A stretch of DNA of 64,000 nt from an uncultured Candidatus Saccharibacteria bacterium (GTDB taxonomy: Bacteria; Patescibacteriota; Saccharimonadia; Saccharimonadales; Saccharimonadaceae), in assembly GCA_947307225.1 (NCBI GenBank), contig CAMZIL010000001.1, positions 62,001-126,000 of the forward strand. Direction: 5' to 3'. Each line of letters begins with the position of its first letter. Position 1 is the first letter of the stretch. Under the pieces are notes generated by a model that worked only from the letters and a program-made list of their open reading frames with translations, was not told the DNA's origin and ran no database searches. A program made the position numbers and the translations under genes. Shown here one piece after another: positions 3,638 through 63,000 of this stretch.

Positions 3638-5140
3638 CTACCTTTTTATATACTTCGCTATTGCCTTCAACTCGTTTCTGAAAAACAATAAACTCATCAC
3701 TATATAGCATGCAAAGAAGACACCAGCATATATTGCCGCATATTTTACCCAATCTAATAGCGAGACGATCCCGCTCGTAGTAATAATTGTTGAAGTTAAT
3801 ACCGCTAAGCCCGTAAAAGCTGCAAATACAATAAACCTCTTAACGAATTTTAGTATCGGCCTATTTATTAGATTCTTCCTCAAATACACGATATGATAAA
3901 TCGTCCTATAACTCATAGCAATAACGGTGCCAATTGCTATGCCGTTGATGCCTAGTAGTGGAGCGAGGATAATTGAGAGTACTATATTAATAACAGCCTC
4001 CACTATAGCATGCGGGGTCATATCTTTAAACTTATTGGCACTGCTCGCGAGAGTCACGTAAGGGCTTCTCAGTATATATATTCCCTCTGCCAATAATAGC
4101 AAAATCCCAAATATTGGTCGTGCGTAGCTGACATCATTCGCGCCCTGCGTATAAATATTGACAAATGGAGTTATTAAAAGTCCGCCTATCGAAAACAATG
4201 CAAAAGTTATGATCATATTTATAAACTCTAGCGTGTCGAATTTCGCGTTTAGCTTATTTTTATCACCAGAGGCATACAAGTTCCCTACCATTGGAGTGAA
4301 TGCGTTCCACATCGAAAATGTAATTTGCTTTAGGCCAGCCGCCACTAATGCATAGACGCTATAGACTGATGCTTCCGAAAGACTAATAAATACAGAGATG
4401 ATGGCAATATCCGTATTGTTATGAACAAAAGCGGCTAGCGTAATAGCAAACCCGTTCCACCTATCCCTAGCAAGATTATTATCCGGTTGGGCTGCAACGC
4501 CTGAGCTCAAAACATAGTTCTTTTTGACGTAGTGAGATAAAAATATCGGTTGCACCATGAATACAAGGGCCGATGCAATTTTAAGCAGATGGACGCTTGG
4601 CGCTAGGGTACATACTAAAACCGCTAAAACCGTATCCGCAATTGTAAGAAATATTTGGACCAGAGATACGACATACACTTTTTTGTCTGCATTGAGCAGG
4701 TTTTTATACGCCATCGATAAGCAGTATTGAGAAAAGAGCCTTACGGATATTATCAAGGCTAAGCTGGACACGAATGAAAAAGAATATGGCGTTTTTATTA
4801 TGAAAGGACAAATGATTGCCACTAAGGCTGCATATAAAGCATATGCCAATGATATCTTTCTAAAGAAACGTATTGATGTCTTGATAATAGAGCCGACTTT
4901 TTGGTAATCCTTATCATATAGCGGCTTATATAAGCTCGCCATGACTACTCCATTTAGACCACCCTCGAACAAACTAACCACATTCAAAAACTGAGTCAAC
5001 GATGCCGCTAGACCATTCATCTCTGATCCGAACGACGCAATTATTAATCTAGGAATAATAAAATTAGAGACAATATTTACGGCCTGCAAAATAAGGCTAG
5101 AAACGACATTACGTAGAGTCACTTTATTATTCTTTGACAT
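3638..5140 (-). CDS. Wzx-like polysaccharide flippase (MOP superfamily)
   Basis: Predicted inner-membrane flippase that moves lipid-linked glycan repeat units to the outer face. The protein is about 500 residues, almost entirely hydrophobic helices (12 or more), with the family-like opening LRNVVSSLILQAVNIVSNF. ATG at 5140 is chosen over the longer frame to 5155 because a GAGGAG Shine-Dalgarno lies 7 nt before it. Either start overlaps the upstream Wzy-like gene by some bases, so translation is probably coupled. It is the last gene of the operon. The neighbouring glycosyltransferases and polymerase-like gene support a glycan-export role; the substrate is unknown. Base composition is AT-richer than the flanking housekeeping genes. 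Confidence 0.82.
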   Translation of the reverse strand: MSKNNKVTLRNVVSSLILQAVNIVSNFIIPRLIIASFGSEMNGLAASLTQFLNVVSLFEGGLNGVVMASLYKPLYDKDYQKVGSIIKTSIRFFRKISLAYALYAALVAIICPFIIKTPYSFSFVSSLALIISVRLFSQYCLSMAYKNLLNADKKVYVVSLVQIFLTIADTVLAVLVCTLAPSVHLLKIASALVFMVQPIFLSHYVKKNYVLSSGVAAQPDNNLARDRWNGFAITLAAFVHNNTDIAIISVFISLSEASVYSVYALVAAGLKQITFSMWNAFTPMVGNLYASGDKNKLNAKFDTLEFINMIITFALFSIGGLLITPFVNIYTQGANDVSYARPIFGILLLLAEGIYILRSPYVTLASSANKFKDMTPHAIVEAVINIVLSIILAPLLGINGIAIGTVIAMSYRTIYHIVYLRKNLINRPILKFVKRFIVFAAFTGLAVLTSTIITTSGIVSLLDWVKYAAIYAGVFFACYIVMSLLFFRNELKAIAKYIKR

Positions 5141-6254
5141 TGTCGCTCTCCTCATTTTGCTGCGCCGCTCTTTCGCGATTAGATCTATCGCTTGTGAACA
5201 TAACTAAGTAGAAAGGCAACAATATCGCTTGGTGCCTAATGAGCGTACCGAAATCCGATTCGGACGCAACTAGCATGATCCAGTATCCTAGAATAAATGC
5301 TATAAACACTAAGTTACTGTGTTTCAACTTATTCTTTATTGAACCAATAATACTAAGCGTTAAAAACAGTTGGTAGATTACGAACGGAATGTATTTTACC
5401 CCCATAAACAATAGTTCCAGAGGGAACATCATTCTTGCGGCATTAATTACATAGTTCAAAGCGAAAGCGAAGAAGCTATCCCCGCTAAAAACATTTGTGA
5501 TAACAGTTGCCGAATCGAGATCCTCGGCCAGCGTATTGCGACGCGTTATGAGGGCGTTATAGCCGCTTCTGCTGACATATTGTGCTAGATACATCGCCGC
5601 CAGCATAATAGCTACAGACAATAGTAAATACTTTACGACGGTCTTCTTATTACTATTGGATATCCTCTTTTCGAGAACTAGATATGAAACAATAATCGAC
5701 GCCGAAAAGATGATGTAATACGGGCGAAATACTACCGATTCTACCCCCATCAACGAAGCCGCTATAAATATCTTATATCTATTTTTAATTCTCGTCCTGA
5801 ATATTGCAAACGGGATTAGGACTAAAATGCACTGTATTAAATCTTTGTTAATGTTAAAAACAAACACGTCCAAAATGAACATGCTCGCATAAATAAATAG
5901 GTACTCTCTCAGCGTATACTTCTTCTTTATCTTAAGTAGAATGAAGAAAAACACTGCATTCATGATAATCGCCCAAAATATACCCCATTCCAATGCCGTC
6001 TTAAACGGCAAAAAATCAACGATTCTATATATACGAAGTGGGAAACTGTAGGAATTATCTGAAGGAACATAGTCAGACGGGAGCCAGCCGAGCAGTCTGT
6101 TGATGATGCCAAAGGCATTACTGTTCAGGGCAGTGAACTGGAATATTTTCGCAACTATTATTATTGGAAAAATAAGAAGAAGGAGTGCAACCTGCGTCTT
6201 CTGTGTTTTCTGCGTTTTCTGCGTTTTTTGATTCTTCTGCAACAGTCTTTTCAT
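5127..6254 (-). CDS. Wzy/EpsG-like membrane glycan polymerase, putative
   Basis: A 375-residue polytopic membrane protein with about ten hydrophobic segments and a larger soluble loop near residues 225-270, which contains a SRSGYNALITRRN stretch. Position between a flippase and a glycosyltransferase, size and topology suggest the O-antigen/EPS polymerase that joins repeat units outside the membrane. Sequence similarity within this family is always weak, so this is an inference from context. Oddity: residues 8-21 are a short tandem repeat of QKT, encoded by 9-bp units around 6192-6230, just before the first membrane helix. The gene starts 4 bp after the preceding glycosyltransferase stop. Confidence 0.65.
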   Translation of the reverse strand: MKRLLQKNQKTQKTQKTQKTQVALLLLIFPIIIVAKIFQFTALNSNAFGIINRLLGWLPSDYVPSDNSYSFPLRIYRIVDFLPFKTALEWGIFWAIIMNAVFFFILLKIKKKYTLREYLFIYASMFILDVFVFNINKDLIQCILVLIPFAIFRTRIKNRYKIFIAASLMGVESVVFRPYYIIFSASIIVSYLVLEKRISNSNKKTVVKYLLLSVAIMLAAMYLAQYVSRSGYNALITRRNTLAEDLDSATVITNVFSGDSFFAFALNYVINAARMMFPLELLFMGVKYIPFVIYQLFLTLSIIGSIKNKLKHSNLVFIAFILGYWIMLVASESDFGTLIRHQAILLPFYLVMFTSDRSNRERAAQQNEESDNVKE

Positions 6255-6257
6255 ATT

Positions 6258-7394
6258 TTATTGCCCCACCCTCATGCGATAATATCGCTCAAGCTCTTTC
6301 ACGGAGTCTTCAATAATATAGCCAGCTGCGCTTAAATCTTTTTTAGTATCAATTCGATCACGGCGGCCGTTCAGTATACTATCAGCCCATACCTTTGCCG
6401 ATTCATCTAAAGAAATAAATGAAAGTGCTTCCGAGACTTTTGTTTCACTAGTAACAACACCTTTTGATGTATATGACGGCAAACCAGCGGCCTGCGCCTC
6501 AATCCCGACAACCGGTAGTCCCTCGTAGAGCGATGGCAGAAGAAAAATATCCATTGCTTGCATTAGCTCATTTACATTCTGCTTATAGCCGGCAAATATG
6601 ACTTTATCACTAATACCCAAGTCTTTTACCTTATTGCGTATTTCTTCCTCTCCTTCGCCGACGCCAACAAGAATCATTTTAACCTTGCTGTTCGAGTTAC
6701 GCATTTCATTGAATATATCCACCAAAAAACTGTGATTCTTTTGCTTAGTGAAGCGCCCTACGTGTCCAATTAGCAACTCGTCGTCATTGATGCTATACTC
6801 TTTTCTTATCCTACGCCTGGTTTCCTCATTAAAACAGAACGCCTTATAGTCTACGGCATTGTGAATAATCTTCACTTTTTCGGCTTGCACCGCTTTCTTG
6901 CCAAACAGCCAAGCTCCGGCTAATTTCGAGCACGCAAAATAGTCAGTTGCATATTTCATTAATGGCTTTTTAAGTATATTGCCAATTGCTCGCTTTAAAA
7001 GGCTCTTCGTTTGGAACCCTGTATTGTGAGAATGCACTATTCGAATCGGAACGCCATATTTTTTTGCATACTTTAGAAGAATATAATTTTTGCTTGATGC
7101 ATTCATGTGGATAATATCATACCCTTCATGCTCTCCAAAAAACTGCTTTAGGGCTCGACTATATCTTATATAGCTCATTGGGGTTTTTATCCAAATACCA
7201 TCTAACTTATAGAAATTTGCTCCGGCATCTTTTATTGCTTTTTCGAGCGGATATTCAATACCGTCGTCCAAAGTTAGAACATCTATATCAAACTGGCTTT
7301 TATCTATATGTTTGACGTTTTCGACAAGAAACTGCTGAATACCGCCATGGCGCATTCGGTCTACGAAAAATAGCACTTTTATTTTGTTGCTCAT
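6258..7394 (-). CDS. GT4-family glycosyltransferase
   Basis: Cytoplasmic GT-B glycosyltransferase expected to add one sugar to the lipid-linked repeat unit. At 378 residues it has the normal size. The N-terminal Rossmann domain has the glycine-rich acceptor-side motif RMRHGGIQQFL at about 13-23. The C-terminal donor domain shows IGHVGRFTKQKNHSFLVD and the retaining EX7E motif in LPSLYEGLPVVGIEAQ near residue 300. The start is well supported by GGGAGG 7 nt upstream. Its ATG overlaps the stop of the pyruvyl transferase gene by 4 bp (ATGA), which also shows that TGA is a stop here. It closely resembles the other GT4 enzyme at 8566-9681, suggesting an old duplication. Donor and acceptor sugars cannot be read from sequence. 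Confidence 0.9.
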   Translation of the reverse strand: MSNKIKVLFFVDRMRHGGIQQFLVENVKHIDKSQFDIDVLTLDDGIEYPLEKAIKDAGANFYKLDGIWIKTPMSYIRYSRALKQFFGEHEGYDIIHMNASSKNYILLKYAKKYGVPIRIVHSHNTGFQTKSLLKRAIGNILKKPLMKYATDYFACSKLAGAWLFGKKAVQAEKVKIIHNAVDYKAFCFNEETRRRIRKEYSINDDELLIGHVGRFTKQKNHSFLVDIFNEMRNSNSKVKMILVGVGEGEEEIRNKVKDLGISDKVIFAGYKQNVNELMQAMDIFLLPSLYEGLPVVGIEAQAAGLPSYTSKGVVTSETKVSEALSFISLDESAKVWADSILNGRRDRIDTKKDLSAAGYIIEDSVKELERYYRMRVGQ

Positions 7395-8569
7395 TTTTTA
7401 TCCTCCCTCATCTTGAGAGAATCGAGCAGCCATTTCGAGGAATCGCACCTGAACTCATCGAGTTTTTTATTAACCAAATCATAATCAATAGTGTTGGCCA
7501 AAACAGAGTTTACGTCTTCGCTGCCGGTCAATATTCGATTATTTATCCCAAGTTGCGCATGAAGCGAATCGAGCCTTGAATTGGTCGAGTTTTTTGAGCT
7601 CGCTTTGTGGCGCCTAAAATTATAGAACTGCTTATTGAATAGTATTGAAAATACCGTGCCATGGAATGAATCGGTGCAGACATACTCTGCATTTTTGATT
7701 AGATTTATCCACTCCTTAGGACCGATATTGTATGGGGTAATATCTGCAAAAATGTCCGAATATTTAACATATTCATCCGCATGATTTATGGAAACAATCT
7801 TGTAACCAGTCGCCTTTCTGAGACGTTCAGCAAATTTCCTGTGCTCAATATTGCTGCCTAAAAAGTAGCATAGTATATATTTCTCTTTAATTATCCTCTC
7901 AGCTTTTGCAAATGACCACCATTCGTCCTTCGTTAAAAGTATGGTCGGATCACAGACGATTTTCGAATCCATGCCCGTTATCTTTGCTATTAGTTCTTGA
8001 CCGCTTCTTTCCCTAGTGGACAAATGGTTGATTCTGCCCAAAAAATGATGATATTTCCCCGTAAGCTTTTCGGGAATGGAGGATATCCCAAAGCTCGTGG
8101 CATAGGATACTTTATTGATGTTGTCCGGAACCCAATTAAGGGTATAGTAGTCCGCTACAACGTTCACTGGCAACCACAATTGATCAGAGCCAAGTAACAC
8201 ACTTGAATAGTCTTTTTCTGCCACAGAGCTTAATTCGGCATACGTTTTAGCGCCCTCTGAGAGTCTAAACTCCTCTCTAAACTCCTCATATTTCCTAGAC
8301 CTTATAGCGATATTTTTTCCAAGTTTTTTATTAATTTTTGTATCAATTTTCATCTTTATCATTCCGAATTTCGCCATTATGAAGCCTAAATTCGTAATTT
8401 GCGAGATATAATATTTCCTTTTTCCTTTTTTGAAGTCTAGATTGTTCTCGATTGAGATAGTCTCGTTCGGTATATTATTCAAGTCCAAAAATTTTTGCGT
8501 CGCATACGCCTGAAGCACGCTACCGTAGTTATTTTTGAAATAGCATGAAACAACACCTACTTTTTTCAT
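7391..8569 (-). CDS. Polysaccharide pyruvyl transferase family protein
   Basis: Member of the CsaB/WcaK-type family that transfers pyruvate from phosphoenolpyruvate to a sugar, giving an acidic ketal. The protein is about 392 residues from ATG 8569, preceded by GAGG. Family features are the N-terminal YGSVLQAYATQ, the central LLGSDQLW motif and the C-terminal TDSFHGTVFSILF motif with its conserved histidine. It overlaps the next gene (6258-7394) by 4 bp and the previous one (8566-9681) by a few bases, so the operon is tightly coupled. If active, the surface glycan would be pyruvylated and anionic, which in other bacteria can be a ligand for SLH domains; that consequence is inference. Confidence 0.88.
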   Translation of the reverse strand: MKKVGVVSCYFKNNYGSVLQAYATQKFLDLNNIPNETISIENNLDFKKGKRKYYISQITNLGFIMAKFGMIKMKIDTKINKKLGKNIAIRSRKYEEFREEFRLSEGAKTYAELSSVAEKDYSSVLLGSDQLWLPVNVVADYYTLNWVPDNINKVSYATSFGISSIPEKLTGKYHHFLGRINHLSTRERSGQELIAKITGMDSKIVCDPTILLTKDEWWSFAKAERIIKEKYILCYFLGSNIEHRKFAERLRKATGYKIVSINHADEYVKYSDIFADITPYNIGPKEWINLIKNAEYVCTDSFHGTVFSILFNKQFYNFRRHKASSKNSTNSRLDSLHAQLGINNRILTGSEDVNSVLANTIDYDLVNKKLDEFRCDSSKWLLDSLKMREDKK

Positions 8570-9681
8570 AGTACCGCCTCGCATTGCTTAATATATTGTT
8601 CCTGAAGCATTCCGGATGCTTTCCCTGCATCATAACTATCCGCTATGCGAGAAAGGCGGTCACCGCTGGTCGATAGCAGCGCCCCATTCCATTTCTCGAC
8701 TGAACCTATTTCAATATAATTAATTGGCCCGCCCATATCAATTTCGCCCGTAACGCAGTTCGAGGCAAGAACGGGAACGCCATTCGCTTGTGCCTCAACT
8801 CCGACTACTGGCAGCCCCTCATACAAGCTCGGTAAGCAAAATACGTCAAAAACTGAGAATAGCTTATTAGCATTGCTCCTTTGACCTAGGAAGAAGACAT
8901 CACTCTCTAAATGTAGTTTTTTGACTTTATCTTCAATTTCTTCACGAAGGGGACCTTGGCCAACCAATACTAATTTTGCGTTAGGTTTTTCTTTTTTTAC
9001 TTCAGCAAATACGTCGATCAAGAACCTATGATTTTTCTGCTCTACAAATCTGCCGATATGGCCGATTACAAAATCGTTGTCCTTGATTCCAATTTCTATG
9101 CGCAGTTTCTTGCGGGCTTCTGGGTCGAACTTAAACTTCTCTACGTCAATAGCATTATGAACAATCTTAACTTTTCCGGAATCAAATGTCTTGTTGCCGA
9201 ATAAATATCTGCCGGCAAGCTCGCCGCAGGCAAAATAGTCCGTTGCATACTTTTTGCTAAATGGACGCAGCGTGTTTTTGAGCAGATTTTTCTTCCATTC
9301 TTTCGGATTGCTCGTGCTATGACTATGCGCAATCCTAACTTTTACGCCGGCTTTTTTAGCAGCACGGAGTGGAAAAACAGAGAGTGTATTAATGTTTGAG
9401 TGAACGATACGATATTTTTTCTCACGAAAAAGTTTTTCGAGAAACTTCATATATTTAAAGAGCTTTTGGTATGGTGGACACAAAATAACATGGCCGCCGA
9501 GTTTTTCGATTTCTTCATACGGAATATTAGTCGAATCTTCATCGCAAATAAAGTCGAACTGTATCTTGCTGCGGTCGATATGGCGATAATAATTCATGAT
9601 CACCGCTTCTACGCCGCCACCGACCCACTTGCCCATGATTTGGGCGACTACGATCGGTTGATTATTCTTCCCACCCGTCAT
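8566..9681 (-). CDS. GT4-family glycosyltransferase
   Basis: A 371-residue GT-B glycosyltransferase. The N-terminal domain has GKWVGGGVEAVIMNYY (about 17-32) and a HSHSTS acceptor-site stretch. The C-terminal domain has VIGHIGRFVEQKNHRFLID and the EX7E motif within LPSLYEGLPVVGVEAQ. The start at 9681 follows AAGGAG by nine bases and lies just after the stop of the sugar transferase gene. This enzyme probably adds the second sugar after the initiating transferase, judging from gene order. It shares about the same length and many motifs with 6258-7394. Confidence 0.9.
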   Translation of the reverse strand: MTGGKNNQPIVVAQIMGKWVGGGVEAVIMNYYRHIDRSKIQFDFICDEDSTNIPYEEIEKLGGHVILCPPYQKLFKYMKFLEKLFREKKYRIVHSNINTLSVFPLRAAKKAGVKVRIAHSHSTSNPKEWKKNLLKNTLRPFSKKYATDYFACGELAGRYLFGNKTFDSGKVKIVHNAIDVEKFKFDPEARKKLRIEIGIKDNDFVIGHIGRFVEQKNHRFLIDVFAEVKKEKPNAKLVLVGQGPLREEIEDKVKKLHLESDVFFLGQRSNANKLFSVFDVFCLPSLYEGLPVVGVEAQANGVPVLASNCVTGEIDMGGPINYIEIGSVEKWNGALLSTSGDRLSRIADSYDAGKASGMLQEQYIKQCEAVL

Positions 9682-9682
9682 T

Positions 9683-10382
9683 TTAGTCAGCTCCTTTGCC
9701 GAGGAGGACGCATTTGAACGCCATCACGAAAATCTTTATATCAGTCTTCAAGCTCATATTCTGCGAATACCATTGCTCGAGCACTAGACGCTGTTGGAAG
9801 TCGAGGCCGCTCCTACCCGATACTGCCCACCAAGAAACAATTCCGCATTTCGTACTGACAATATCGTCGAAATACTCGCCCATGTCTTCTTTTTCGCTTA
9901 CCATGTATGGACGGTTGCCAATGATCGACATGTCGCCTTTAAGAACGTTGATGAATTGCGGGAATTCGTCGAGTGAAGTCTTGCGCAAGAATTTGCCCAT
10001 CTTCGTAATGCGTGGGTCGTTTTTGAGTTTTTTGTTCTGCTGGTACTCAGCGAGAATGGCTGGATCTTTGAACAGCTCTTCGTGCAAAATGCGCTCAGCA
10101 TTTGGTACCATGGTGCGGAATTTGTAAAAGCGGAATGGTTTGCCCCCCCCTTCCAATGCGCATGTGGTCTTTCAAGAAAATTGGATTACGGTCGCCAGTT
10201 AGTAAATAAGCTAGCTTGACAAACGGGATTAATATGATGACACCGACGCAGCCGACGAGGGCAAAAATAATGTCGAAAATTCGCTTCACGAAATGGTAGC
10301 CGGCGGAGCGAATTTTGAGTAAAGCTCCGGTTTTTGCGGCCAAATTATCTCTGTTCTCTATGGTTTCGGCGTTCGTGCTCAT
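9683..10382 (-). pseudogene. Undecaprenyl-phosphate sugar phosphotransferase, frameshifted at a G8 tract
   Basis: Initiating enzyme of the operon, which would load the first sugar phosphate on undecaprenyl phosphate at the membrane. The first frame (from ATG 10382, RBS AGAGGTG) gives the N-terminus, one long hydrophobic helix (about 35-60) and RNPIFLKDHMRIGRGG. The continuation KPFRFYKFRTMVPNAE, TSLDEFPQFINVLKGDMSIIGNRP and the C-terminus lie in another frame ending at 9683. The frames meet at eight consecutive G on the coding strand (10143-10150); seven would restore one protein of about 230 residues. This is a contingency-type homopolymer, so phase variation, a sequencing slip or a real null mutation are all possible. 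All other family motifs are intact, which argues against old decay. Confidence 0.88.
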
Positions 10383-10401
10383 TTTTCACCTCTTTCGATA
10401 C

Positions 10402-10434
10402 AAAAAACGACCTAGTCTTCCGGTACTGGGTCGT
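10402..10434 (-). terminator. Leader terminator (attenuator-like) of the polysaccharide operon
   Basis: On the minus strand a 10-bp stem (10434-10425 with 10416-10407, one G.U pair) and an 8-nt loop are followed at once by six T. It lies between the operon promoter (10495-10467) and the first gene, with no gene upstream to terminate. Earlier leader bases TGGGT (about 10452-10448) can pair with ACCCA in the left arm of the stem, giving a possible antiterminator. A 13-codon reading frame beginning ATG at 10453 ends with TAG inside the hairpin. Confidence 0.7.
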
Positions 10435-10466
10435 CTATGTACCTCCCACCCATAGGATTTGCGTAT

Positions 10467-10495
10467 ATTGTAGTACTTTTTGCTATTTTTGTCAA
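10467..10495 (-). promoter_or_regulatory. Strong sigma70-type promoter of the polysaccharide operon
   Basis: TTGACA at 10495-10490, a 17-bp spacer and TACAAT at 10472-10467. Start of transcription is expected near 10460, about 75 nt before the first gene. Confidence 0.82.
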
Positions 10496-10520
10496 TAGTT
10501 TTTCCCTATTTTTTACCCCT

Positions 10521-10550
10521 TTGTAGCACAAGCGTTTAGTATGCTATAAT
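10521..10550 (+). promoter_or_regulatory. Promoter of the MIP channel gene
   Basis: TTGTAG at 10521-10526, an 18-bp spacer and TATAAT at 10545-10550, diverging from the polysaccharide operon promoter. The -10 is a perfect consensus, the -35 is weak. Confidence 0.6.
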
Positions 10551-10578
10551 GTATCCATACACATTTAAAGGAGGTGCG

Positions 10579-11592
10579 ATGGCAACAACCAAAGCCAAGT
10601 CGACCAAGAAGCCTGCAGCAAAGAAACCTGCTGCAAGGAAAACAGCTTCAAAGTCGAAAAGTACAGTCAAGACTGTCAAGGCTACCGCGAAGGTAACTGC
10701 AGTCAAATCAGAAAAGGTGGGCAGCGAAAAAACCAAAATCGTCTCCGAGAAAGCTACGGTCGGCAAGAAGAATCCGATCAAAGAATTCTTTGCTCGCAAG
10801 GGCGATCCAAACGAAAACATTCTAACAATCTTTAAAGACACCAAGATCATCGGTGCAATCATCGGCGAAATCATTGGTACGGGTCTTATTACCGCCGTCG
10901 CTTTGACGCTCGGTCTATTCAATCCGCTCTACATGATCTTTGCTTACATTGCAGTCACTGCAGGTGTATTTGCACTTTCTGGTGCACATATCAACCCAAT
11001 CATCACTGCTGGTATGATGGCTAGCCGCCGTGTCTCTGCGATTCGTGGTATTCTCTACATCATCGCACAGCTCATCGGTGCATGGCTTGGCTTCATGATC
11101 ATCAGCGGTTTCTACAACGCCGGTATCGCTAGTGGTAACATTGATGCTGCCACCACGCTCTTGCCAACGCTCACTGCCGCTGAGGACATCCAGGCCGCAA
11201 CCGAAGGCTTCAGCTTCTTCTGGCAGATTACGATGCTCGAGTTCATCGGCGCAATCATCATTGCGTTCTTCTTTGCTCGCGCACTCGACTACAAGCGTGG
11301 TGCTTTCACCTTCGCAGCAGTCGTTGCAGGTGGCGTCTTCCTCGCAATGCTCTTCGCAGTTGTTGTCTGCAACAACTTCCTTGGCATTCAGGGTAACGTC
11401 TTTATCATGAACCCAGCAGCCGCATTTATGTACGGCTTGCTCCCAGCTAGCGCCGAAGGTTTCGATGCGCTCATGGGTCAGCTCATGCCAATGCTAGTGA
11501 CCTACGTCGTCTTCCCACTAATTGGTGGCGTCCTCGGTTTCTACATTTCGGACTTCGCAAACAAGCTCAGCCACAAAGAGCTTAACGCCTAA
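10579..11592 (+). CDS. MIP-family (aquaporin/glycerol facilitator) channel with lysine-rich N-terminal tail
   Basis: Integral membrane channel for water or small neutral solutes. ATG 10579 is chosen because AAAGGAGGTG lies just upstream; it gives 337 residues. Residues 1-65 are a Lys/Ala/Thr/Ser-rich tail (TKKPAAKKPAARKTASKSK) resembling histone H1 tails. The channel domain follows with six hydrophobic helices. The first half-helix motif is NPI at about 139-141 (SGAHINPI) instead of NPA; the second is canonical NPA at about 278-280. The basic tail is unusual for the family; it could bind nucleic acid or anionic lipids, which is speculation. The gene has its own promoter and ends in a strong terminator. 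Confidence 0.9.
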   Translation: MATTKAKSTKKPAAKKPAARKTASKSKSTVKTVKATAKVTAVKSEKVGSEKTKIVSEKATVGKKNPIKEFFARKGDPNENILTIFKDTKIIGAIIGEIIGTGLITAVALTLGLFNPLYMIFAYIAVTAGVFALSGAHINPIITAGMMASRRVSAIRGILYIIAQLIGAWLGFMIISGFYNAGIASGNIDAATTLLPTLTAAEDIQAATEGFSFFWQITMLEFIGAIIIAFFFARALDYKRGAFTFAAVVAGGVFLAMLFAVVVCNNFLGIQGNVFIMNPAAAFMYGLLPASAEGFDALMGQLMPMLVTYVVFPLIGGVLGFYISDFANKLSHKELNA

Positions 11593-11613
11593 AACAGACA
11601 ATTTGGTTTTTCG

Positions 11614-11645
11614 GAGAGCCGCTCTCAAAGCGGCTCTCTTTTTTG
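11614..11645 (+). terminator. Intrinsic terminator after the MIP channel gene
   Basis: Perfect 10-bp stem GAGAGCCGCT / AGCGGCTCTC with a 5-nt loop, followed by a run of T. Confidence 0.9.
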
Positions 11646-11711
11646 ATATAATAAAGGGGTTGGATAATAGTTGACCGACGAATGCCCTTTTCAGAAAAGG
11701 AGTGAAGTTGT

Positions 11712-11933
11712 GTGAAAAAGCAGGTAAAATCATACACCGTGGTCTCCGAGCTCACCAAAGACGAAGGCGACTGGAACGAAACCCAGTCCAAAATTGCAAT
11801 TGCCGTTATCGTCGTAATCTTTGTCGTTTTCTTTGTCTTCCTTATCGCTTCCGCTGAGATTAAACAACAATCCAGATACGACAGCAACGGGCAACAAAGC
11901 ACGACCGTCTCTACGGAGCTCGAAGTCCACTAA
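11712..11933 (+). CDS. Small single-pass membrane protein, unknown function
   Basis: A 73-residue protein with a charged N-terminus (about 1-27), one hydrophobic helix (IAIAVIVVIFVVFFVFLIA, about 28-46) and a polar Gln/Ser/Thr-rich C-terminus. The start is GTG at 11712, preceded by AAAGGAG at about 9 nt. It is placed between two strong terminators (11614 and 11940), so it is a separate transcription unit. No family was recognised. The ribosome binding site and dedicated terminator make a real gene likely. Confidence 0.7.
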   Translation: MKKQVKSYTVVSELTKDEGDWNETQSKIAIAVIVVIFVVFFVFLIASAEIKQQSRYDSNGQQSTTVSTELEVH

Positions 11934-11939
11934 CTCGCT

Positions 11940-11973
11940 GCCCTTGGCCGCTTCGGCGCCCAAGGGCTTTTTT
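11940..11973 (+). terminator. Intrinsic terminator
   Basis: GCCCTTGG-c-CGC, TTCG tetraloop, GCG-c-CCAAGGGC, then six T. It ends the small membrane-protein gene and nearly touches the M16 peptidase stop on the other strand. Confidence 0.88.
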
Positions 11974-11974
11974 C

Positions 11975-13252
11975 TTATACAGTATCGAGGATGCGGCCCC
12001 AAAGTTCGTCGAGAACCGCTTTGTTCATGTTGCCAACTGCTGCCAAGCCGGAAACGCCGGATTGCATAAAGATGCGCGCGAGTTGGACGATGGTACTCTT
12101 ATCGATTGCTTCGATCATTTTTGGCGCATCCGCCATTGGCTGGAAAGTGCCGGTTGTAACGTAGTCGCGGAGATAGTATGCGCTGATTTGGTCTGCTGTT
12201 TGGGCGAGCATTTGATGATGGCCGAGCGCATATGCTTTCGCTGCTGCGATGTCCGCCTCGGAAATATCGCCATTAATAACTTTACCAAGTTCGATGGCAA
12301 TTAAATCAAATAAGTCCTGTGCATTCTCGGCATTTACTTCACCGTCAAAATCCCAAGTACTGGACCATTTGTCCGACTCGGTCTGCGAACCCATGCCGTA
12401 GACAATACCTTTCTTGCGAGCGGTACCAAAAATCTTGCTACTCATTGTGCCGTTCAAAATGTGGTTTAGACAGCCCATTGCATATTGCTCGGCAGGAGTA
12501 AGTGCGCGTTGAATGACAAACGAAAAGCCAAAACTCATATTGCTGGCGTCTTTACGGCGGATGAGCACTGGCGCGGAAGCCTTGTATGCCGACATTGGCA
12601 GCTCGAACTTCTCGCCCGGTTTTAGATCCCAGTTTTCGAGCATCGAAGTGATTTTATGTTTGCGGCCACGCAAATTGCCAGTGATAATAAACTGCATATT
12701 GTTGGCCGTGTGCGTGCGGCGATAATGATCACGCACGTCTTTTAGCTCGATGTTATTGATCGTTTTTAGACGTTCGCCATAGGTCAAAACCTCTTCGCCG
12801 AGTGCCTGCTGCAACTTTGGCCAAATCAGACGAGAATAATCATTCTGATAGCCAGTAAGTTCGGAGCGCACGTTGCCCTTTTCGCTGGCGAGTTCTTCTT
12901 CATTAAAGCGCGGCTGCGCTACGGCAAGCTCCTGCAAATCTAGGATGCGTTCCCATTCAAAATCTGCACATTCCGCCTCGTATGCGATAAAGCAATCCGA
13001 AGTCCAGGCGTTGTGATAGGCGCCGTTTTTCGTAAACTCGGCTTCGTAGGCCTGCTCGTCGCGGAATTTTGCGTTGCGACCAAAAGCCATGTGCTCCATC
13101 AAATGAGCAACTTCATAAATGTCCTGCGACTTGGTAAATTTATTGCCCGCACGAAAAATCACCCGTATGTTTAAAACAGGACTACCTGGCGCATCGATAA
13201 GGAGGCCCCGAGCGCCATTCTTGAGCCGGACCTCCTCAATCGAATGTTTCAA
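11975..13252 (-). CDS. M16 (insulinase/pitrilysin) family zinc metallopeptidase
   Basis: Predicted zinc peptidase of the processing-peptidase type, 425 residues. The inverted zinc motif HLMEH is at residues 50-54. Glu131, in EKGNVRSEL, is at the usual spacing of 76 residues for the third ligand. A second, non-catalytic M16 half follows from about residue 220. The start is TTG at 13252, immediately after the secA stop, with AAAGG about ten bases upstream; a TTG start next to a coupled stop is plausible, but a later start cannot be excluded. The position downstream of secA suggests cotranscription, though a link to protein export is only contextual. Confidence 0.9.
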   Translation of the reverse strand: MKHSIEEVRLKNGARGLLIDAPGSPVLNIRVIFRAGNKFTKSQDIYEVAHLMEHMAFGRNAKFRDEQAYEAEFTKNGAYHNAWTSDCFIAYEAECADFEWERILDLQELAVAQPRFNEEELASEKGNVRSELTGYQNDYSRLIWPKLQQALGEEVLTYGERLKTINNIELKDVRDHYRRTHTANNMQFIITGNLRGRKHKITSMLENWDLKPGEKFELPMSAYKASAPVLIRRKDASNMSFGFSFVIQRALTPAEQYAMGCLNHILNGTMSSKIFGTARKKGIVYGMGSQTESDKWSSTWDFDGEVNAENAQDLFDLIAIELGKVINGDISEADIAAAKAYALGHHQMLAQTADQISAYYLRDYVTTGTFQPMADAPKMIEAIDKSTIVQLARIFMQSGVSGLAAVGNMNKAVLDELWGRILDTV

Positions 13253-16132
13253 CTATTTGCGACCTTTTTTCTTGTTTTGACGAGCTTTTTTCTTGGTCTT
13301 GCGAGCCGCATTGCGCTTGGCGTTGCGATCGGTATTCTTGGCGGAGCCAGACTTCTTGCTGGTTCCGACGTTAGAACGATGTTCGGATGCTTTGCCGACG
13401 CCATGTTCGTCTTTGCTAAACTCATCATCCATGCTCTTAACACCAGCGGAGACTTCGTTCACACCCTTTTCGGTTGCACCCTCAGCCATCTTGGTAAGCT
13501 CGGTGTCATATTTATCATCGGAAACTTCGGCAACTTCCTGAACGCGAATTGTGAGGAGAATTCTCATGACTTCCTCGCGAAGTGCGCGCTGAAGACCGTC
13601 GAAGAGCTTTTGCGATTCGGAGCGATACTCGACGAGTGGATCACGCTGACCGACTGAACGCCAGTGGATACCCTCGCGGAGATGTTGCATGTTTTCTAGG
13701 TGCTGCATCCAGAGCGTATCGAGAACGTTGAGGTAAACTTCGCGCTCAATCTTACGCATCGTATCCTCGCCAAACTCGAGCTCTTTGTCATGATACATTT
13801 CTTCAACTGCAGCGAGTGCGAGCTTGTAGCGATCCTTTTCCTTGCGCATGAGACCGATCGATTCGATCAAATCATCATCGAGATCAAAGACGCTCTTGAA
13901 CTGCTCGGCAAACTTCTTGTTGACACGAGCGCTGAACTGCGTAAGCTCTGCAATCTCGTCTTTGTAGAGGCGAGAAATCTCTGGGCGGATGTTATCACCG
14001 TCGAGAATCTTGCGGCGCATCGTGTAAACAACTTTGCGGTGACGGTTAATGACGTTATCGTACTGAACAACGTTCTTGCGGCTATCAAAGTTGAAGCCTT
14101 CGATACGTTTCTGAGCGGATTCCAAAGTCTTGCTGACCATGCGGTTGCGGAGTGGCATATCGTCATCAACGCCAAGACGTTTCATGATCATCGCGATGCG
14201 ATCGCCCTGGAAGATGCGCATGAGGTCATCCTCGCAGGATACGAAGAACTGGGTCGTACCAGGATCGCCCTGACGGCCACCACGACCACGGAGCTGGTTA
14301 TCAACGCGGCGGGAATCATGACGAGCCGTACCAATCACGACGAGACCGCCGAGCTCAACGACACCCTTGCCGAGCTTAATATCGGTACCACGACCTGCCA
14401 TGTTGGTCGCGAGGGTAACTGCACCCTTTTCACCAGCCTTGGCAATAATCGCAGCCTCACGCTCGTTGTTCTTTGCGTTCAAAATCTCGAATGGAATGTT
14501 TTCTTTTTCGAGGTAAGCCGCAATGCGTTCGTTGTTCGCAATAGAATCGGAACCAACAAGAACTGGCTGGCCGCGATCGTGATATTTATGAATCTCTGCG
14601 GCGATCGCCTTGAGCTTTGCAGCCTCGGTACGATAGATGAGATCGTCTTTATCGACACGAATAATCTTTTTGTTAGGTGGAATCTGAATTACGTCGAGGG
14701 CATAAATCTGCTGGAACTCCTCTGCCTCGGTAAATGCCGTACCGGTCATACCGGAAAGCTTGTTGTATAGGCGGAAGAAGTTCTGGAAGGAAATCGTTGC
14801 GAGGGTCGTAGACTCTTCGCGGACCTGGACGCCTTCCTTTGCCTCGATAGCCTGGTGGAGACCTTCGTTGTAGCGGCGGCCATGCATGAGACGACCGGTA
14901 TGCTCATCGACGATCATAACCTCGCCAGAGTTCGTAACGACGTAATCTTTATCGCGCTTGAAGAGAGTCTCGGCACGAAGGGCCTGCTCTAGGTGATAAA
15001 CAATGCGCGTGTTTTCGGTGCTATAGAGAGTATCGACGCCGAGAATCTTTTGGACCTTTTCGACACCTGCATCGGTCAAAGAAACCGTGCGGCGTTTTTC
15101 GTCGACAATGTAATCCTCATCGGAAAGCTGAGCGCAGACCTTTGCGAACTGATAGTAGCTCTCTGGGTTGTCGGCAGCTGGAGCGGAAATAATGAGCGGG
15201 GTGCGAGCCTCATCGATCAAGATGGAGTCGACCTCATCGACGATCGCAAAGTTGAGTTCGCGCTGGCGGAGATACTGAGCATCCTTGACCATGTTATCAC
15301 GGAGATAATCGAAGCCGAACTCATTGTTCGTACCGTAGGTGACGTCGCACATATAAGCCTCTTTGCGGGTTGCCGGCTTGAGGTGTTTCATGCGAGGATC
15401 GTCATGATCGTCGTTTTCGTATTCTTTGTCATAGACAAAGCTTGCCTCATTGATGATGACACCGACGGAGAGCCCGAGGAAGTCGTAGAGCTCGCCCATC
15501 CAGCCAGCATCACGCTGAGCAAGGTAATCGTTAACGGTCACGACGTGGACGCCGCGGCCAGTAAGTGCGTTCAAATAAACTGGAAGGGTTGCAACGAGAG
15601 TTTTACCTTCACCAGTCTTCATCTCGGCAACGTTGCCTTCGTGAAGGACGATACCACCGATGAGCTGAACATCAAATGGGCGGAGACCGAGGATGCGGTC
15701 GCTAGCCTCACGGACAAGGGCGAATGCCTCAGGCAAGATCTGATCTAGGACCTTGTTGTCGGCTGCGATCTGGGCCTTCTTGTCGATCTTTTTGGTTTTG
15801 ACCTTTTTGCCCTCTTTCTTGGCCTTTTCCTTTACCTCTTCACGAGCCTTGGCAGCCTGAGCCTGCTTGTTGAGCTTTTCAAAGCGCTTTTTGAGCGTTT
15901 CGGTCTGCGCAGCGAGCTCTTTCTTGCTCATCTCGGAGTATTTGCCGGCGAGCTTGTTGATCTCGTCTACGCGTTTCTGAAGACGACGAAGAGTTTTCTT
16001 CTGGGCGTCGCCAAAAATATGCTGCAAAAACTTGGTAGTTGCGGTCTTGTCTGCTAATTTGTCAGTAGGTTTCTTTTCTTTTGGAGCTTTTTTGTTTTCC
16101 ACCCGTTTCTTATCTGACTTCCTCTCTTTCAT
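13253..16132 (-). CDS. secA: Preprotein translocase ATPase SecA
   Basis: Motor of the Sec pathway, driving unfolded proteins through SecYEG. The 959 residues show Walker A MKTGEGKT at about 171-178, VHVVTVNDYLAQRDA, the DEVDSILIDEARTPLIISAP box and the helicase motifs NMAGRGTDIKLG and QLRGRGGRQGDPG. Oddities compared with E. coli SecA: about 33 extra N-terminal residues, a Lys/Ala-rich insertion at about 88-125 inside the first domain, and a long basic C-terminal tail with no Cys-rich zinc domain. Start: ATG 16132 is preceded by TATACT at 16144-16139 with a 6-nt gap and no Shine-Dalgarno, so leaderless. The M16 gene follows directly. Confidence 0.97.
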   Translation of the reverse strand: MKERKSDKKRVENKKAPKEKKPTDKLADKTATTKFLQHIFGDAQKKTLRRLQKRVDEINKLAGKYSEMSKKELAAQTETLKKRFEKLNKQAQAAKAREEVKEKAKKEGKKVKTKKIDKKAQIAADNKVLDQILPEAFALVREASDRILGLRPFDVQLIGGIVLHEGNVAEMKTGEGKTLVATLPVYLNALTGRGVHVVTVNDYLAQRDAGWMGELYDFLGLSVGVIINEASFVYDKEYENDDHDDPRMKHLKPATRKEAYMCDVTYGTNNEFGFDYLRDNMVKDAQYLRQRELNFAIVDEVDSILIDEARTPLIISAPAADNPESYYQFAKVCAQLSDEDYIVDEKRRTVSLTDAGVEKVQKILGVDTLYSTENTRIVYHLEQALRAETLFKRDKDYVVTNSGEVMIVDEHTGRLMHGRRYNEGLHQAIEAKEGVQVREESTTLATISFQNFFRLYNKLSGMTGTAFTEAEEFQQIYALDVIQIPPNKKIIRVDKDDLIYRTEAAKLKAIAAEIHKYHDRGQPVLVGSDSIANNERIAAYLEKENIPFEILNAKNNEREAAIIAKAGEKGAVTLATNMAGRGTDIKLGKGVVELGGLVVIGTARHDSRRVDNQLRGRGGRQGDPGTTQFFVSCEDDLMRIFQGDRIAMIMKRLGVDDDMPLRNRMVSKTLESAQKRIEGFNFDSRKNVVQYDNVINRHRKVVYTMRRKILDGDNIRPEISRLYKDEIAELTQFSARVNKKFAEQFKSVFDLDDDLIESIGLMRKEKDRYKLALAAVEEMYHDKELEFGEDTMRKIEREVYLNVLDTLWMQHLENMQHLREGIHWRSVGQRDPLVEYRSESQKLFDGLQRALREEVMRILLTIRVQEVAEVSDDKYDTELTKMAEGATEKGVNEVSAGVKSMDDEFSKDEHGVGKASEHRSNVGTSKKSGSAKNTDRNAKRNAARKTKKKARQNKKKGRK

Positions 16133-26038: not shown

Positions 26039-28141
26039 TTAGTTCAACTTTTTACGGCTAATGATGTAGTAGCCAGCAGCGGTTGCGACGCTAGCTGCGC
26101 CGAACACGCCGGAAATAACAGTAGATGCACCAGTCTTTGGAATCTCTGGTTCACCACATTCGATTGCGTTAACAGTAACATCAGCGATGTCAGACTTTTC
26201 GGTCTTTGCGTCGTTGTTGTACTTACCCTTTGCGACGTTGCGGAGAGTAGAATCTGCACAAACATCAGATGGGGTTTTAACCGTAGCGTAGAAGTAAACC
26301 GTAGCTTCCGTACCCTTAGCGTAATTACCGATGTTAATACCACCAGCAGTTACGATGCCATCACCGAGAGCCTTGCCCTTGGTATTTGCTGCGTTGTAAA
26401 GAACAGTGCTGCCCTTTACGTAGTTCATACCAGCAGGAAGGATATCACGGATAACGACATTGTTGAGGGTAGTGTTACCAGTGTTCTTGAATTGGATGCG
26501 ATAGCGAACAGTGTCGCCAGCCTTAGCAGTAACATTCTCTGCCCAAGTGCTACCACCCTTTAGCTGAACCATCTTGTTGATAGTAAAGCCTGGGTTTTCT
26601 TTCTCGGAGCAGTCTTTGCCGTTGACAGAGACAACTGCGGTGTCAGACTTTTCAGTCTTGGCATCGTTGTTGTACTTAGCCTTGGCAGTGTTAGTAAGCT
26701 CAACATCTTCACAGATGTCAGCGAGATCGCCGTTCATCGTAACGAAGAAGTAGAGGTTAACAGTTTTACCAGCTTCGACAGAACCGATGTTGATACCATT
26801 CGTAGAAATGACACCATCAGCGAGTTTCTTGCCGTCGAGGTTGGTGCTACCTGCAACGTAGGTTTCGTTGCTTGGAAGGATATCGCGAATTACGACATTA
26901 TTCAAAGTAACGTTACCAGTGTTCTTGAATTGAATACGATATTCAACCTTATCGCCAGCTTTGGCGGTAATGTTTTCGGTAAACTCGTTGTTGCCGAGGC
27001 GAACTTTCTTATCGAGAGTAAAGCCTTCGGTACAAACCTTGCCGTCGACGAGAACGTCAGCGGTGTCTTCCTTCGTACCGGTAGAATAACCGGCGCTAAC
27101 CTGAGCTTTGTTACGGAGAAGCGTATTAGTACACTTATCAGAAACGCCAGCCTTAACCTTAGCGTTGAAGTAGAGAACTGCGTTTGCGCCAGCAGCGTAG
27201 TTACCAATATTAATACCAGTGTTGCTGGTAATACCGTCAGCGACGCTAGTACCAGGGTTTGGATAGTTGGCATTAATCATAGTAGTAGAACCCTTGATGT
27301 ACTCAAGGTTTGCAGGAAGAATATCACGGACGATGATGCCGTTAAGCTTCACAGAACCGGTATTCTTAACGATGATACGATAACGAACAGTATCACCAGA
27401 CTTTGCTTTAACCTGTTCACTCCAGGTATCAGTACCAAGGAGTTTAACTTCCTTAGAGATACTGAGGTTTGGAGTTTCAACTTTCTTAGCAAACTGTGCC
27501 TTCACATGGAAGGTTAGGTAGCCAGAATATTTGTTACAGCCAGGGATCTTACCATCCATCTGGTCATAACCAAGCAAAACGCCCTTGCTGTTTAGCAAAT
27601 CGTTGCTAAGCTTGAACGAACGGAGCTTGCCATTCGCATCAGCGTTAGCGTAGGTTGCAGAACCAGCGACGTAAGCGAGGTTAAACTTTTCACCATTCTT
27701 TGATACAAAATGCGTTTCATCCCAAACAGCGTTTGGTTTTGCGTTAGTGGAAGTAATCTTACCGCTAACAGTAATCTTGGTACCAGTGTCGGTCGGAAGA
27801 ACGACAAAGGCTTTGACGTTCTCTGCGGTGAGGTTTAGATTGGCGCCAGCGTTGTTGTGTACATACATACGAACAACATACTCTTTGCCATCCTCAACGT
27901 AGGTATTGTCAGAGTAATAGTTATCTTTAGCATTACCGGTCCACTTAGAAGCGGAAACGAAATAACGTTCATCACCGATAACGTTGTTAGTAATCGAGTT
28001 AAATGTGACGTAGCTAGCTGGTTTTTCCATCGTGAAAGTTGCACGATCAGTTGGACCCCAAGCGAAAACTACGAGCGCGCTAGCAGCGGAGACAGCAGCG
28101 ACAGCTGCGAGACCAATACCAGCCTTAGTGAGTTTCTTCAT
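26039..28141 (-). CDS. Wall/surface protein with three DUF11 repeats and IPKTG sorting-like tail
   Basis: A 700-residue exported protein. ATG 28141 is chosen because AAAGGA lies nine bases upstream and a signal peptide begins there (KKLTKAGIGLAAVAAVSAAS). An N-terminal domain (about 25-210) is followed by three DUF11/Ig-like repeats of about 140 residues, each containing YRI-KNTG and V-RDILP. The C-terminus has IPKTG, a hydrophobic helix (VFGAASVATAAGYYII) and SRKKLN, the layout of a sortase signal with Ile in place of Leu. The repeats are similar at DNA level, so they could recombine. It is probably a stalk or adhesin on the cell surface. No sortase gene is in the window. Confidence 0.87.
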   Translation of the reverse strand: MKKLTKAGIGLAAVAAVSAASALVVFAWGPTDRATFTMEKPASYVTFNSITNNVIGDERYFVSASKWTGNAKDNYYSDNTYVEDGKEYVVRMYVHNNAGANLNLTAENVKAFVVLPTDTGTKITVSGKITSTNAKPNAVWDETHFVSKNGEKFNLAYVAGSATYANADANGKLRSFKLSNDLLNSKGVLLGYDQMDGKIPGCNKYSGYLTFHVKAQFAKKVETPNLSISKEVKLLGTDTWSEQVKAKSGDTVRYRIIVKNTGSVKLNGIIVRDILPANLEYIKGSTTMINANYPNPGTSVADGITSNTGINIGNYAAGANAVLYFNAKVKAGVSDKCTNTLLRNKAQVSAGYSTGTKEDTADVLVDGKVCTEGFTLDKKVRLGNNEFTENITAKAGDKVEYRIQFKNTGNVTLNNVVIRDILPSNETYVAGSTNLDGKKLADGVISTNGINIGSVEAGKTVNLYFFVTMNGDLADICEDVELTNTAKAKYNNDAKTEKSDTAVVSVNGKDCSEKENPGFTINKMVQLKGGSTWAENVTAKAGDTVRYRIQFKNTGNTTLNNVVIRDILPAGMNYVKGSTVLYNAANTKGKALGDGIVTAGGINIGNYAKGTEATVYFYATVKTPSDVCADSTLRNVAKGKYNNDAKTEKSDIADVTVNAIECGEPEIPKTGASTVISGVFGAASVATAAGYYIISRKKLN

Positions 28142-28260
28142 AAAATAAAATCCTTTCTTTGAAATAATTCCAGAATGGAGAAAAAGACTACAATTCATTA
28201 GCCGGATTGTTAAACTGTCGCTAGCAAATCAGATCGTTGCCGTACACAAATTCATTAGAT

Positions 28261-60076: not shown

Positions 60077-63000
60077 ATGAGCATTAAGGTCAAAACAAAA
60101 ACACATAACCTATTAATCGCTGGCTTATTGGCGGCTTTTTTGTGTTTTGGCGCCAGTGGCACAGTCCACGCAGTAGAACAGCATGAATTTACCGATAGTC
60201 GCGGTGTTACCTGGGTATACGAGGTCGACGAGACCGGTGATACACCAGTCGTAACGATTGGCTTTAAAGCCGCGCCTGCCGATGCCACTACCGTCGTCGT
60301 CCCATCTCTCGACGAAGTTATGGCCGCCAGCTCCCAAAGCGGCCTCGACACCTACTTTGTCGACGGAATCCTAGAAGACGAAACTACTGCGACGGTCCCA
60401 ACTGGCCTTACGAAAGTCGATATGACCAATACGCAGAAGGTTCAGCTCCGCAGTCTCTCCCCATTGTTCAAGAATAATCTCGCAAATAACAGTGAAGTCG
60501 AGCTCGTCTTTGGCGATAATATGGTTATCGCTGGCGACAGCTCTGACGATGGTGCATTTGCAGGATTGCATGTAAAAATGTCCGGCTTTGACAAGCTAAA
60601 ATATATTGGTTGGCATGCGTTCGAAGACGTCGTATTCAACGCAAACAATACCAGCGTCTCAATCAGTACTCAGCAAACATTGGGCGGCTACGTCTTTGCC
60701 GGCACGAACCTAAAGACGCTCAATGTTAATACGAAAGAGGTCGGCGAGGCAATCTGTAAAGATTGTTCCGAACTCACGAGCCTCGCTCTCGGCGATAACG
60801 TCGAGACGCTTTATGGTAGAGTCTTCCAGAATACACCGAATCTTTCATTAGAATTTGATTCAAAGAATATCAAGTCGATTGGCGAGCTCGCGTTCGCAGA
60901 TTCCGGCGTTTCGAAGGTCACCTTCAAGCCAACGCTCGAAACAATTGGCCACGGTGCCTTCATGAATAACAATCTCGGTTCAGTCGATTTTTCGAACTCG
61001 ACACCGGTGGTTTCTACTAGTAGCTTCTACAATACCAACCTCAGCTCCGTAAATCTTGGCAATCTCGCCATAATCGGCGATCTCGCTTTCGCCAAGAATA
61101 ACATCACGGAAATTAGCTTCCCTAAGAGCATCCGCAGACTTGGCGCCGCAATATTCGCCGCAAACCCAATCAAAACCGTGACTGTAAAATTCGACACGAT
61201 GGCAGTGTCGGACTACGACAGCAATAGTCTCGTTACGGACTTTAGAGTTCTACTCAGCGGCTCACAAGGAACCGTCTGCGATGGCATGCTGGGCATTTGC
61301 TCGAATCGTCTCGGTACTGACGCCAGTGAATACGTCGAGACATTAAATGTCATTGCCCCGTACGGAGCAAATGACACAGTAATCACGCCACGTAGATCAA
61401 TCAGCGATCAGGGCTATCAGAATGGAATGGCAGACAAAAAGAACGTCATCTCCAGCCTATTCTTCCAAGATTTTGCACATAACCTAAAGACGCTCAATAT
61501 TGGCGAAGGCTATGAATATATCGATAGCCAAGCCTTTATGTGGACCTGTTCATCCGCATTCTCGCTCAACTGTGGCTCGTTCCCGACCTTTGATAGCACG
61601 AACGGCGGCAGCGGCCCATCTTCCGTGAGCTTCCCTTCCACTTTGAAGGGCTTCGGCATCAACTCCTTCATGTGGACGCTAAATAATCCTAGCTTGGTGC
61701 TCGCTAGCCTCCCGGCAGACATTGAGTATATTGGCACTCAGGCATTCGCCGGCAACTCACACCTCACGATTACGAACTTTGACCATAGCAAGCTGAAATA
61801 CGTTGGCGTGAGCGCATTTAATACCACAAATATTATTAATCTAACTATTCGTGAAGCAACGGAAAGAATTGAAAACGCTGCATTTATCGGCAGCCGCAAG
61901 ATGAAGACATTGACGTTTGATACAGACATCTTCGGCAAAAGAAGCGACGGTCAAAAGATTATTGTTTCTACATGGGAGACCGTATTCGTTGGCAATACAA
62001 ATGGCGGCTATCTCGGCGTTGTCCCTTATGATTACGACAAGACGAACTACTGGTATCAGTACAACTATCATTTGGATAAAATCAAATTCACCGAGAAGTC
62101 CGTAACGCCACCAGACACGCCAGATCTCTTCGCAAACTACGTCGACGAGTTCGATGCGAGCGCGGCTAAATGGACGGAGACGAAATATAACGCGTTCCAT
62201 CGCATGAAGGTTAAGACCTTCAAGCTCCCTAGCACGCTAACCAAGATTGCTGAGAATACCTTTATGCGCGCAGAAATCACCAACCCTATTGTTCTTCCTT
62301 CTGGCATTACCGAGATTGGCACGAGAGCATTCTGGGGCACGGTCACAAGTGACGATAGAAACTTCACGCAGTATCCTGAGTATTATCCAAACGCAGTAAT
62401 TGCTAGTGAAGAAGAAATAAAGGCTCCGGTCGCAAATCTCCCTTCGACAATTACAAAAATCGGCGACTTTGCATTCTACATGGACGAGGGCTTTACGGCT
62501 GACGTGAATCTGCCTAACCTCACCTACCTTGGCGAAGAGGCATTTTACGGAACCGACGCGCGCGACGTTGTCTTGGGTAACAAAATTACCACGCTCGGCA
62601 GCAACGCATTTTATAACACGCCTAAACTCCGCAATGTAACCATCGACGTCAACTTGCATGATAAAAATATTCACACCAATGCCGAAAATATGGACAAATA
62701 CGGTAGCTTCGTCGCAACTTTCGGTGCAGGCCAAAAGCTTGGCGTGGTGAAGTTTGGCGAACATGCCGGCGAGCCGCATACTGCAGAAGGCACGACTGAG
62801 TATATCTGCAACGGCTTCGCAAGCTGCGACAAGAAGTGGGCATATTTCTACGGTCTAAAGGCAGAAAAACTCGACCTCAACGATACGAATTGGAAAGCCC
62901 TAAGCGCATCCATGCTCCAAGAAGCAAAGGTCGACGAGATTATCTTGCCGCACGCGCTAGAATCGATCGGCAACGATGCGTCCTATGAAGCAGAGCTTGG

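Follow-up and report, generated by a model that had tools for sequence, protein, structure and literature searches.

An eight-G homopolymer at the frame break of a predicted initiating sugar transferase in a capsule-type operon of a Saccharibacteria genome

In the window, i.e. the whole 64000-nucleotide stretch of DNA that was analysed, the gene for a PF02397 sugar transferase is split in two exactly at a run of eight G (positions 10143–10150, minus strand), and one G fewer joins the N- and C-terminal pieces in a single frame. The most likely reading, to which we give about an even chance, is that the assembled sequence represents a genuine, recent slipped OFF allele that would be reversible in principle. 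The tract itself is real, an OFF allele produced by slippage is plausible, and adaptive phase variation at this transferase is unproven. The window covers positions 62001–126000 of contig 1 of a 1.07-Mb draft genome, which by size and gene content is probably of Saccharibacteria type. Under the mechanism that we propose, a species-specific G run would have arisen in the Gly-Lys/Arg-X-Gly motif of a WbaP/RfbP-type transferase and, in a lineage without MutS, would slip by one base. The assembled genome would then hold the OFF form, the short product of which would keep the membrane helix without the active site. In OFF cells the transfer of sugar to the lipid carrier would stop at this locus, and a reverse slip would restore the transferase, giving a simple reversible on/off locus. 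We infer that cells really carry the allele and that its reversion rate is useful, and likewise the identity of the glycan.

The split transferase and its operon

On the plus strand, positions 10143–10150 read as eight C (CCCCCCCC), and on the minus strand the resulting G8 stands in the context ...CGC ATT GGA A GGGGGGGG CAAACC.... The N-terminal piece (10382 to 10095, minus strand) starts with ATG, encodes 95 amino acids including the re-entrant membrane helix region of a small phosphoglycosyl transferase and matches positions 1–51 of the 179 in PF02397 (E 2e-4). Its frame reads ...IFLKDHMRIGRGG up to the tract, then departs from the conserved sequence and meets a stop codon 15 codons beyond the G8. 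The conserved continuation, KPFRFYKFRTMV..., is found in the neighbouring frame, which encodes the C-terminal, catalytic piece (9683–10142, minus strand) with its SLDEFPQ motif and a match to PF02397 positions 45–178 of 179 (E 6e-45; 153 bits against a cut-off of 27). The assembled genome therefore holds two frames that meet at the G8 in place of one open frame for this gene. When joined, the pieces read RIG-RGG-KPFRF across the tract, compared with RIG-KDG-KPFRF in the two closest orthologues, from the genomes G042 and G028. The original prediction, that the gene is split precisely at eight G and that seven would give a whole and otherwise conserved protein, is borne out by the letters, by the open reading frames and by the PF02397 matches to both pieces, which do join; the remainder of the gene is intact and under purifying selection.

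The gene is a predicted WbaP/RfbP-type small phosphoglycosyl transferase. The PF02397 (monotopic phosphoglycosyl transferase) profile extends over the catalytic domain, and the catalytic piece aligned with the solved structures of the WbaP galactose-1-phosphate transferase (E about 4e-39) and, less strongly, with PglC of Campylobacter (E about 1e-18). Its KTSLDEFPQ aligns to RTSLDELPQ of WbaP, and it keeps the Asp-Glu catalytic dyad named in PMC10942596. The likeness to WbaP/RfbP (PF02397; NF052601, TIGR03022) runs end-to-end over the catalytic domain; unlike WbaP, the transferase assigned here to that family from sequence is small, has no N-terminal domain and is frame-broken in the assembly. 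As the membrane-helix region lies on one side of the break and the catalytic core on the other, neither piece is expected to be functional by itself. Outside the genus, the nearest relatives found for 9683–10150 are from gut Bacilli and Clostridia MAGs, with up to 63% identity, and two other Saccharibacteria records are less close (50–52% identity), which suggests that the gene has been exchanged with gut Firmicutes.

The split transferase is the first gene of a tight six-gene capsule-type operon that extends on the minus strand to position 3638. It is followed by a group 1 glycosyltransferase (8566–9681; PF00534), which has its own Shine–Dalgarno sequence within the 3' end of the transferase gene, a polysaccharide pyruvyl transferase (7391–8584; PF04230, E 3e-36), a further group 1 glycosyltransferase (6258–7394; PF00534), a multi-pass membrane protein with no family match (5127–6254), which by its place and hydrophobicity is a candidate Wzy-like polymerase, and a candidate Wzx-like flippase (3638–5155) with a weak MatE match that falls below the cut-off (PF01554, E 0.0017). 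An aquaporin/MIP-like gene lies divergently upstream (10549–11592, plus strand), and this aquaporin/transferase pair is conserved in G042, G028 and the more distant congener G012. The genes after the transferase are almost wholly different between this genome and G042. The segments 3638–10382 of the window and 6787–15682 of G042 L152 share their borders, the aquaporin/transferase pair on one side and a pheS-like gene on the other, and the arrangement looks like a capsule-type locus in which the first gene is conserved and the cargo that follows it is exchanged.

A second, larger initiating transferase is encoded on the same contig about 135 kb away, with an intact frame of 476 amino acids from its ATG (TIGR03025), and is also present in most members of the genus, so that loss of the small enzyme need not abolish all initiation. 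It had been claimed that a switch in the first step would control the whole polysaccharide; the split gene is indeed the first of its operon but, with a second full-length transferase present, such control would extend at most to this locus.

Age of the break and the sequencing-error alternative

Compared with G042 and G028, the catalytic piece has pN values of 0.067–0.076 at a pS of about 0.8, and the N-terminal piece has pN values of 0.20–0.32 at a pS of 0.72. Private amino acid changes in the catalytic piece number six in this genome, eight in G042 and four in G028, and the tree gives the window's transferase the shortest branch among these three (0.025). Synonymous sites are saturated in this comparison, and the finest dating that it gives is ‘much younger than the species split’. 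The low pN relative to pS and the short branch argue that the break is not old, which points to a break that is recent, reversible or a sequence error rather than to an old pseudogene. An ordinary recent loss of function, with the gene en route to becoming a pseudogene, would explain a frame break without sign of rescue in a genome with an intact larger transferase, but no further lesion was found in the transferase gene or in the five downstream genes of the operon; we consider such a loss improbable and rank it below the evolved contingency locus discussed in the last section.

No frame break was found in any orthologue of the transferase; one genus member, G025, seemed to be broken at the same place, but its contig merely ends there. 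The intact orthologues also bear on whether slippage of RNA polymerase or the ribosome on the G run allows expression of the gene in spite of the break. Selection on both pieces and the possible slipperiness of a G8 are consistent with such expression, which we nevertheless regard as very improbable, given that orthologues are unbroken, that no conserved stimulator is present and that the required +1 (or −2) shift is not favoured by a plain G run.

When the reading frames of the window were audited against G042, over about 17000 aligned residues, no other real split gene emerged. Two further multi-frame signals, considered as general indel noise, proved to be shadow frames of intact neighbours (an nrdD/nrdG-like region and 48.5–49.1 kb). 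The non-random aspect is that the G8 coincides with the sole real frame break relative to the sister genome in the window. These data bear in both directions on a sequencing or assembly error, in which case the cells would have one G fewer and an intact gene. The genome is a 50-contig draft with one consensus sequence, such errors typically arise in long homopolymers, PCR slippage at a G8 has been reported to yield 14% of flanking product (PMC4965091), and the transferase is the sole broken gene in the window while otherwise under full constraint, all of which an error would fit. It would fit less well with the absence of breaks at other homopolymers over about 64 kb, T7–T8 and A8 tracts included, which indicates that the assembly is not generally indel-prone, or with a short-read consensus at eight G being usually right. 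We therefore rank such an error next after the slipped allele, as a possibility of rather low probability.

The tract in the genome, its orthologues and the repair background

In length the tract matches the in-frame runs of G7–8 or more expected of poly-G contingency loci in surface-structure genes, and eight G is at the short end of the tract lengths known to switch. Under a first-order model about 0.27 G/C runs of at least eight are expected per 64-kb window, so a G8 alone is unremarkable, and longer G/C runs are rarer in the window than that model predicts. The whole genome (1.07 Mb) contains two G8 runs and five runs of at least seven G, compared with about 22 of the latter expected from the base-doublet frequencies of the window; the second G8 lies 30 nt from a contig end. 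The four runs of at least seven G other than the tract, this second G8 included, were rejected as contingency loci: one falls in an apparent terminator hairpin, one in a Gly-rich coding stretch and one where no gene is evident, and the G8 is the one at a contig end. The genome is thus not enriched in poly-G tracts, and the Campylobacter-type setting of the original prediction does not hold: C. jejuni has 12–29 poly-G/C tracts of seven or more per genome (PMC4965091). The present locus does resemble the C. jejuni poly-G/C loci (cj1139, capA) in having an in-frame G run in a surface-glycan gene in which a one-base change breaks the frame, whereas it differs in that switching has been measured in C. 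jejuni (PMC4965091) and here five tracts, one of them in a glycan gene, are known from one genome.

The sister genomes, to which the earlier prediction had looked for comparison, speak against a shared tract, as the two closest orthologues, in G042 and G028, have GKDG here and lack a G run. In G012 the same codons, GGT AGG GGG GGC, form an in-frame G7 in an intact gene. A pattern search of 394 genomes of the family returned no third case of a run in this gene; with two of the 394 carrying it, conservation of the tract across the family is ruled out, and together with the run-free nearest orthologues this means that it is not a locus maintained across the genus. The tree requires two independent origins of the run, in G012 and in this genome. 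Both codons involved are rare (AGG makes up 9% of Arg and GGG 5% of Gly codons), and the chance of the run-forming pair by codon choice is about 0.005. The recurrence in G012 was noticed after the fact and is suggestive.

A further point of comparison with the C. jejuni loci is mismatch repair, the MutS gene of which was not found in this genome. None of the 45 genomes searched in the genus, nor this one, has the MutS ATPase domain (PF00488), which was detected in 11 of 14 control genomes. The repair background is thus permissive, and homopolymers should slip more readily here than in MutS-bearing bacteria. A switching frequency of 0.004 has been reported for a G8 tract in C. jejuni (PMC4965091), a value that may, by analogy, carry over to this lineage.

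Taken together, the slipped allele is favoured by the position of the G8 exactly at the break, the adjoining frames, the conservation of both pieces, the lack of any other split gene and the lack of MutS; the in-frame G7 of G012, the mixed-frame runs of congeners described below and the C. jejuni frequency add to this. Against it stand its occurrence in a single genome, where an assembly slip would give the same picture, the sisters without a run and the small number of long G runs. An isolated mid-gene run that is absent from the sisters, in a genome poor in G runs, lowers the prior for the window.

Poly-G runs in congeners

That prior is raised by the use of poly-G in congeners. The genus-mate G014 has about 20 runs of G8–G12, mainly G9–G10, a length distribution that is wrong for chance, and long runs are also found in G026 (G16 and G17), G006 (G16) and G011 (G10). 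In G014, ten runs lie 16–69 nt after a start codon, mostly one with a Shine–Dalgarno sequence, and directly before a signal peptide (e.g. L192 rc 2479; L193 rc 2527 and 5229; L194 rc 273; L195:2526; L200:2483; range L190–L202). The proteins behind them have SpaA, InlB-repeat, DUF7601, DUF11 or DUF285 domains, or no known domain, and sortase-like tails (e.g. NPKTSD...RRK) close those for which the C-terminal end is known. Of the ten start codons, three are in frame with the protein and seven out of frame, close to the one third in frame expected if tract length drifts freely. These runs are likely to represent a phase-variable surface-protein repertoire.

In addition, runs of G8–G17 lie upstream of an ORF between TTGACA-like and TAnnnT-like boxes 15–25 nt apart, about five of them in G014 (L190 rc 2396; L191 rc 2529; L197:2506; L199 rc 2522; L204 rc 2479) and two in G026 (L209 rc 2505; L214:2523), and are candidate promoter-spacer switches. 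We take them to resemble the poly-G promoter-spacer switches of the Neisseria porA/opc type; unlike those, the tract of the window lies in coding sequence. Another glycan gene of the genus has a G run in its coding sequence, namely a Wzz-like chain-length gene of G026 with an in-frame G9 (L212 rc 2471; GAGGGALYS). Poly-G slippage is thus probably used in the genus.

The phase-variation idea of the original prediction accordingly stands in part, supported by the lack of MutS and the mixed-frame poly-G runs of congeners and weakened by the absence of the tract from the sisters and the small number of tracts. Its stronger form, an evolved contingency locus in which switching of the transferase is itself selected, e.g. 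against recognition of the glycan by phage or host, we consider unlikely. The gene acts at the first step of a surface glycan, the run in G012 is convergent, MutS has been lost, and congeners have a poly-G repertoire that includes the G9 of the Wzz-like gene; set against this, the tract is the only one of its kind in the genome and absent from the sisters, and lies in the middle of the gene and not near its 5' end, where those of congeners are found, and the genome has a second initiating enzyme.

More broadly, we offer the tentative proposal, in our view a doubtful one, that poly-G slippage serves Saccharibacteria-type symbionts of this family as a genuine surface contingency system, acting on the surface proteins of G014 and several relatives through post-start or promoter-spacer runs and here, by way of a young G8 run, on the transferase that initiates a capsule. 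If this is true, random switching of the sugar coat would occur in a tiny-genome episymbiont devoid of mismatch repair, which would be relevant to attachment to the host and to escape from phages. The congeners provide the stronger lead: given their poly-G runs ahead of surface-protein genes, phase variation in this group can be tested directly on existing reads. Searches of the open-licence literature for phase variation or homopolymers in Saccharibacteria or Patescibacteria, and for capsules in Saccharibacteria, gave no paper on such a repertoire, and the closest parallel in the CPR is repeat hypervariation in a single gene of Gracilibacteria (PMC6851277).

At 26039–28198 the window itself encodes a surface protein in which three DUF11-type repeats are combined with an LPXTG-like tail (IPKTGAS...SRKKLN); in contrast with the surface genes of G014, its gene has no G run near the start. 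A family-wide count of the pattern Shine–Dalgarno, ATG and G9 was not clearly above its reversed control, and we claim no family-wide enrichment. Paralogous leaders with ATG...G9–G10 before membrane or signal-peptide segments, in mixed frames, were observed in other genera of the family, in G085 (L249, L264, L270) and G148 (L254, L266). In G165, two contigs carry a G10 (L252) and a G9 (L271) around the same leader, one of them out of frame and the other in frame; the two share only 121 nt and differ upstream, and are as likely to be paralogues as alleles.
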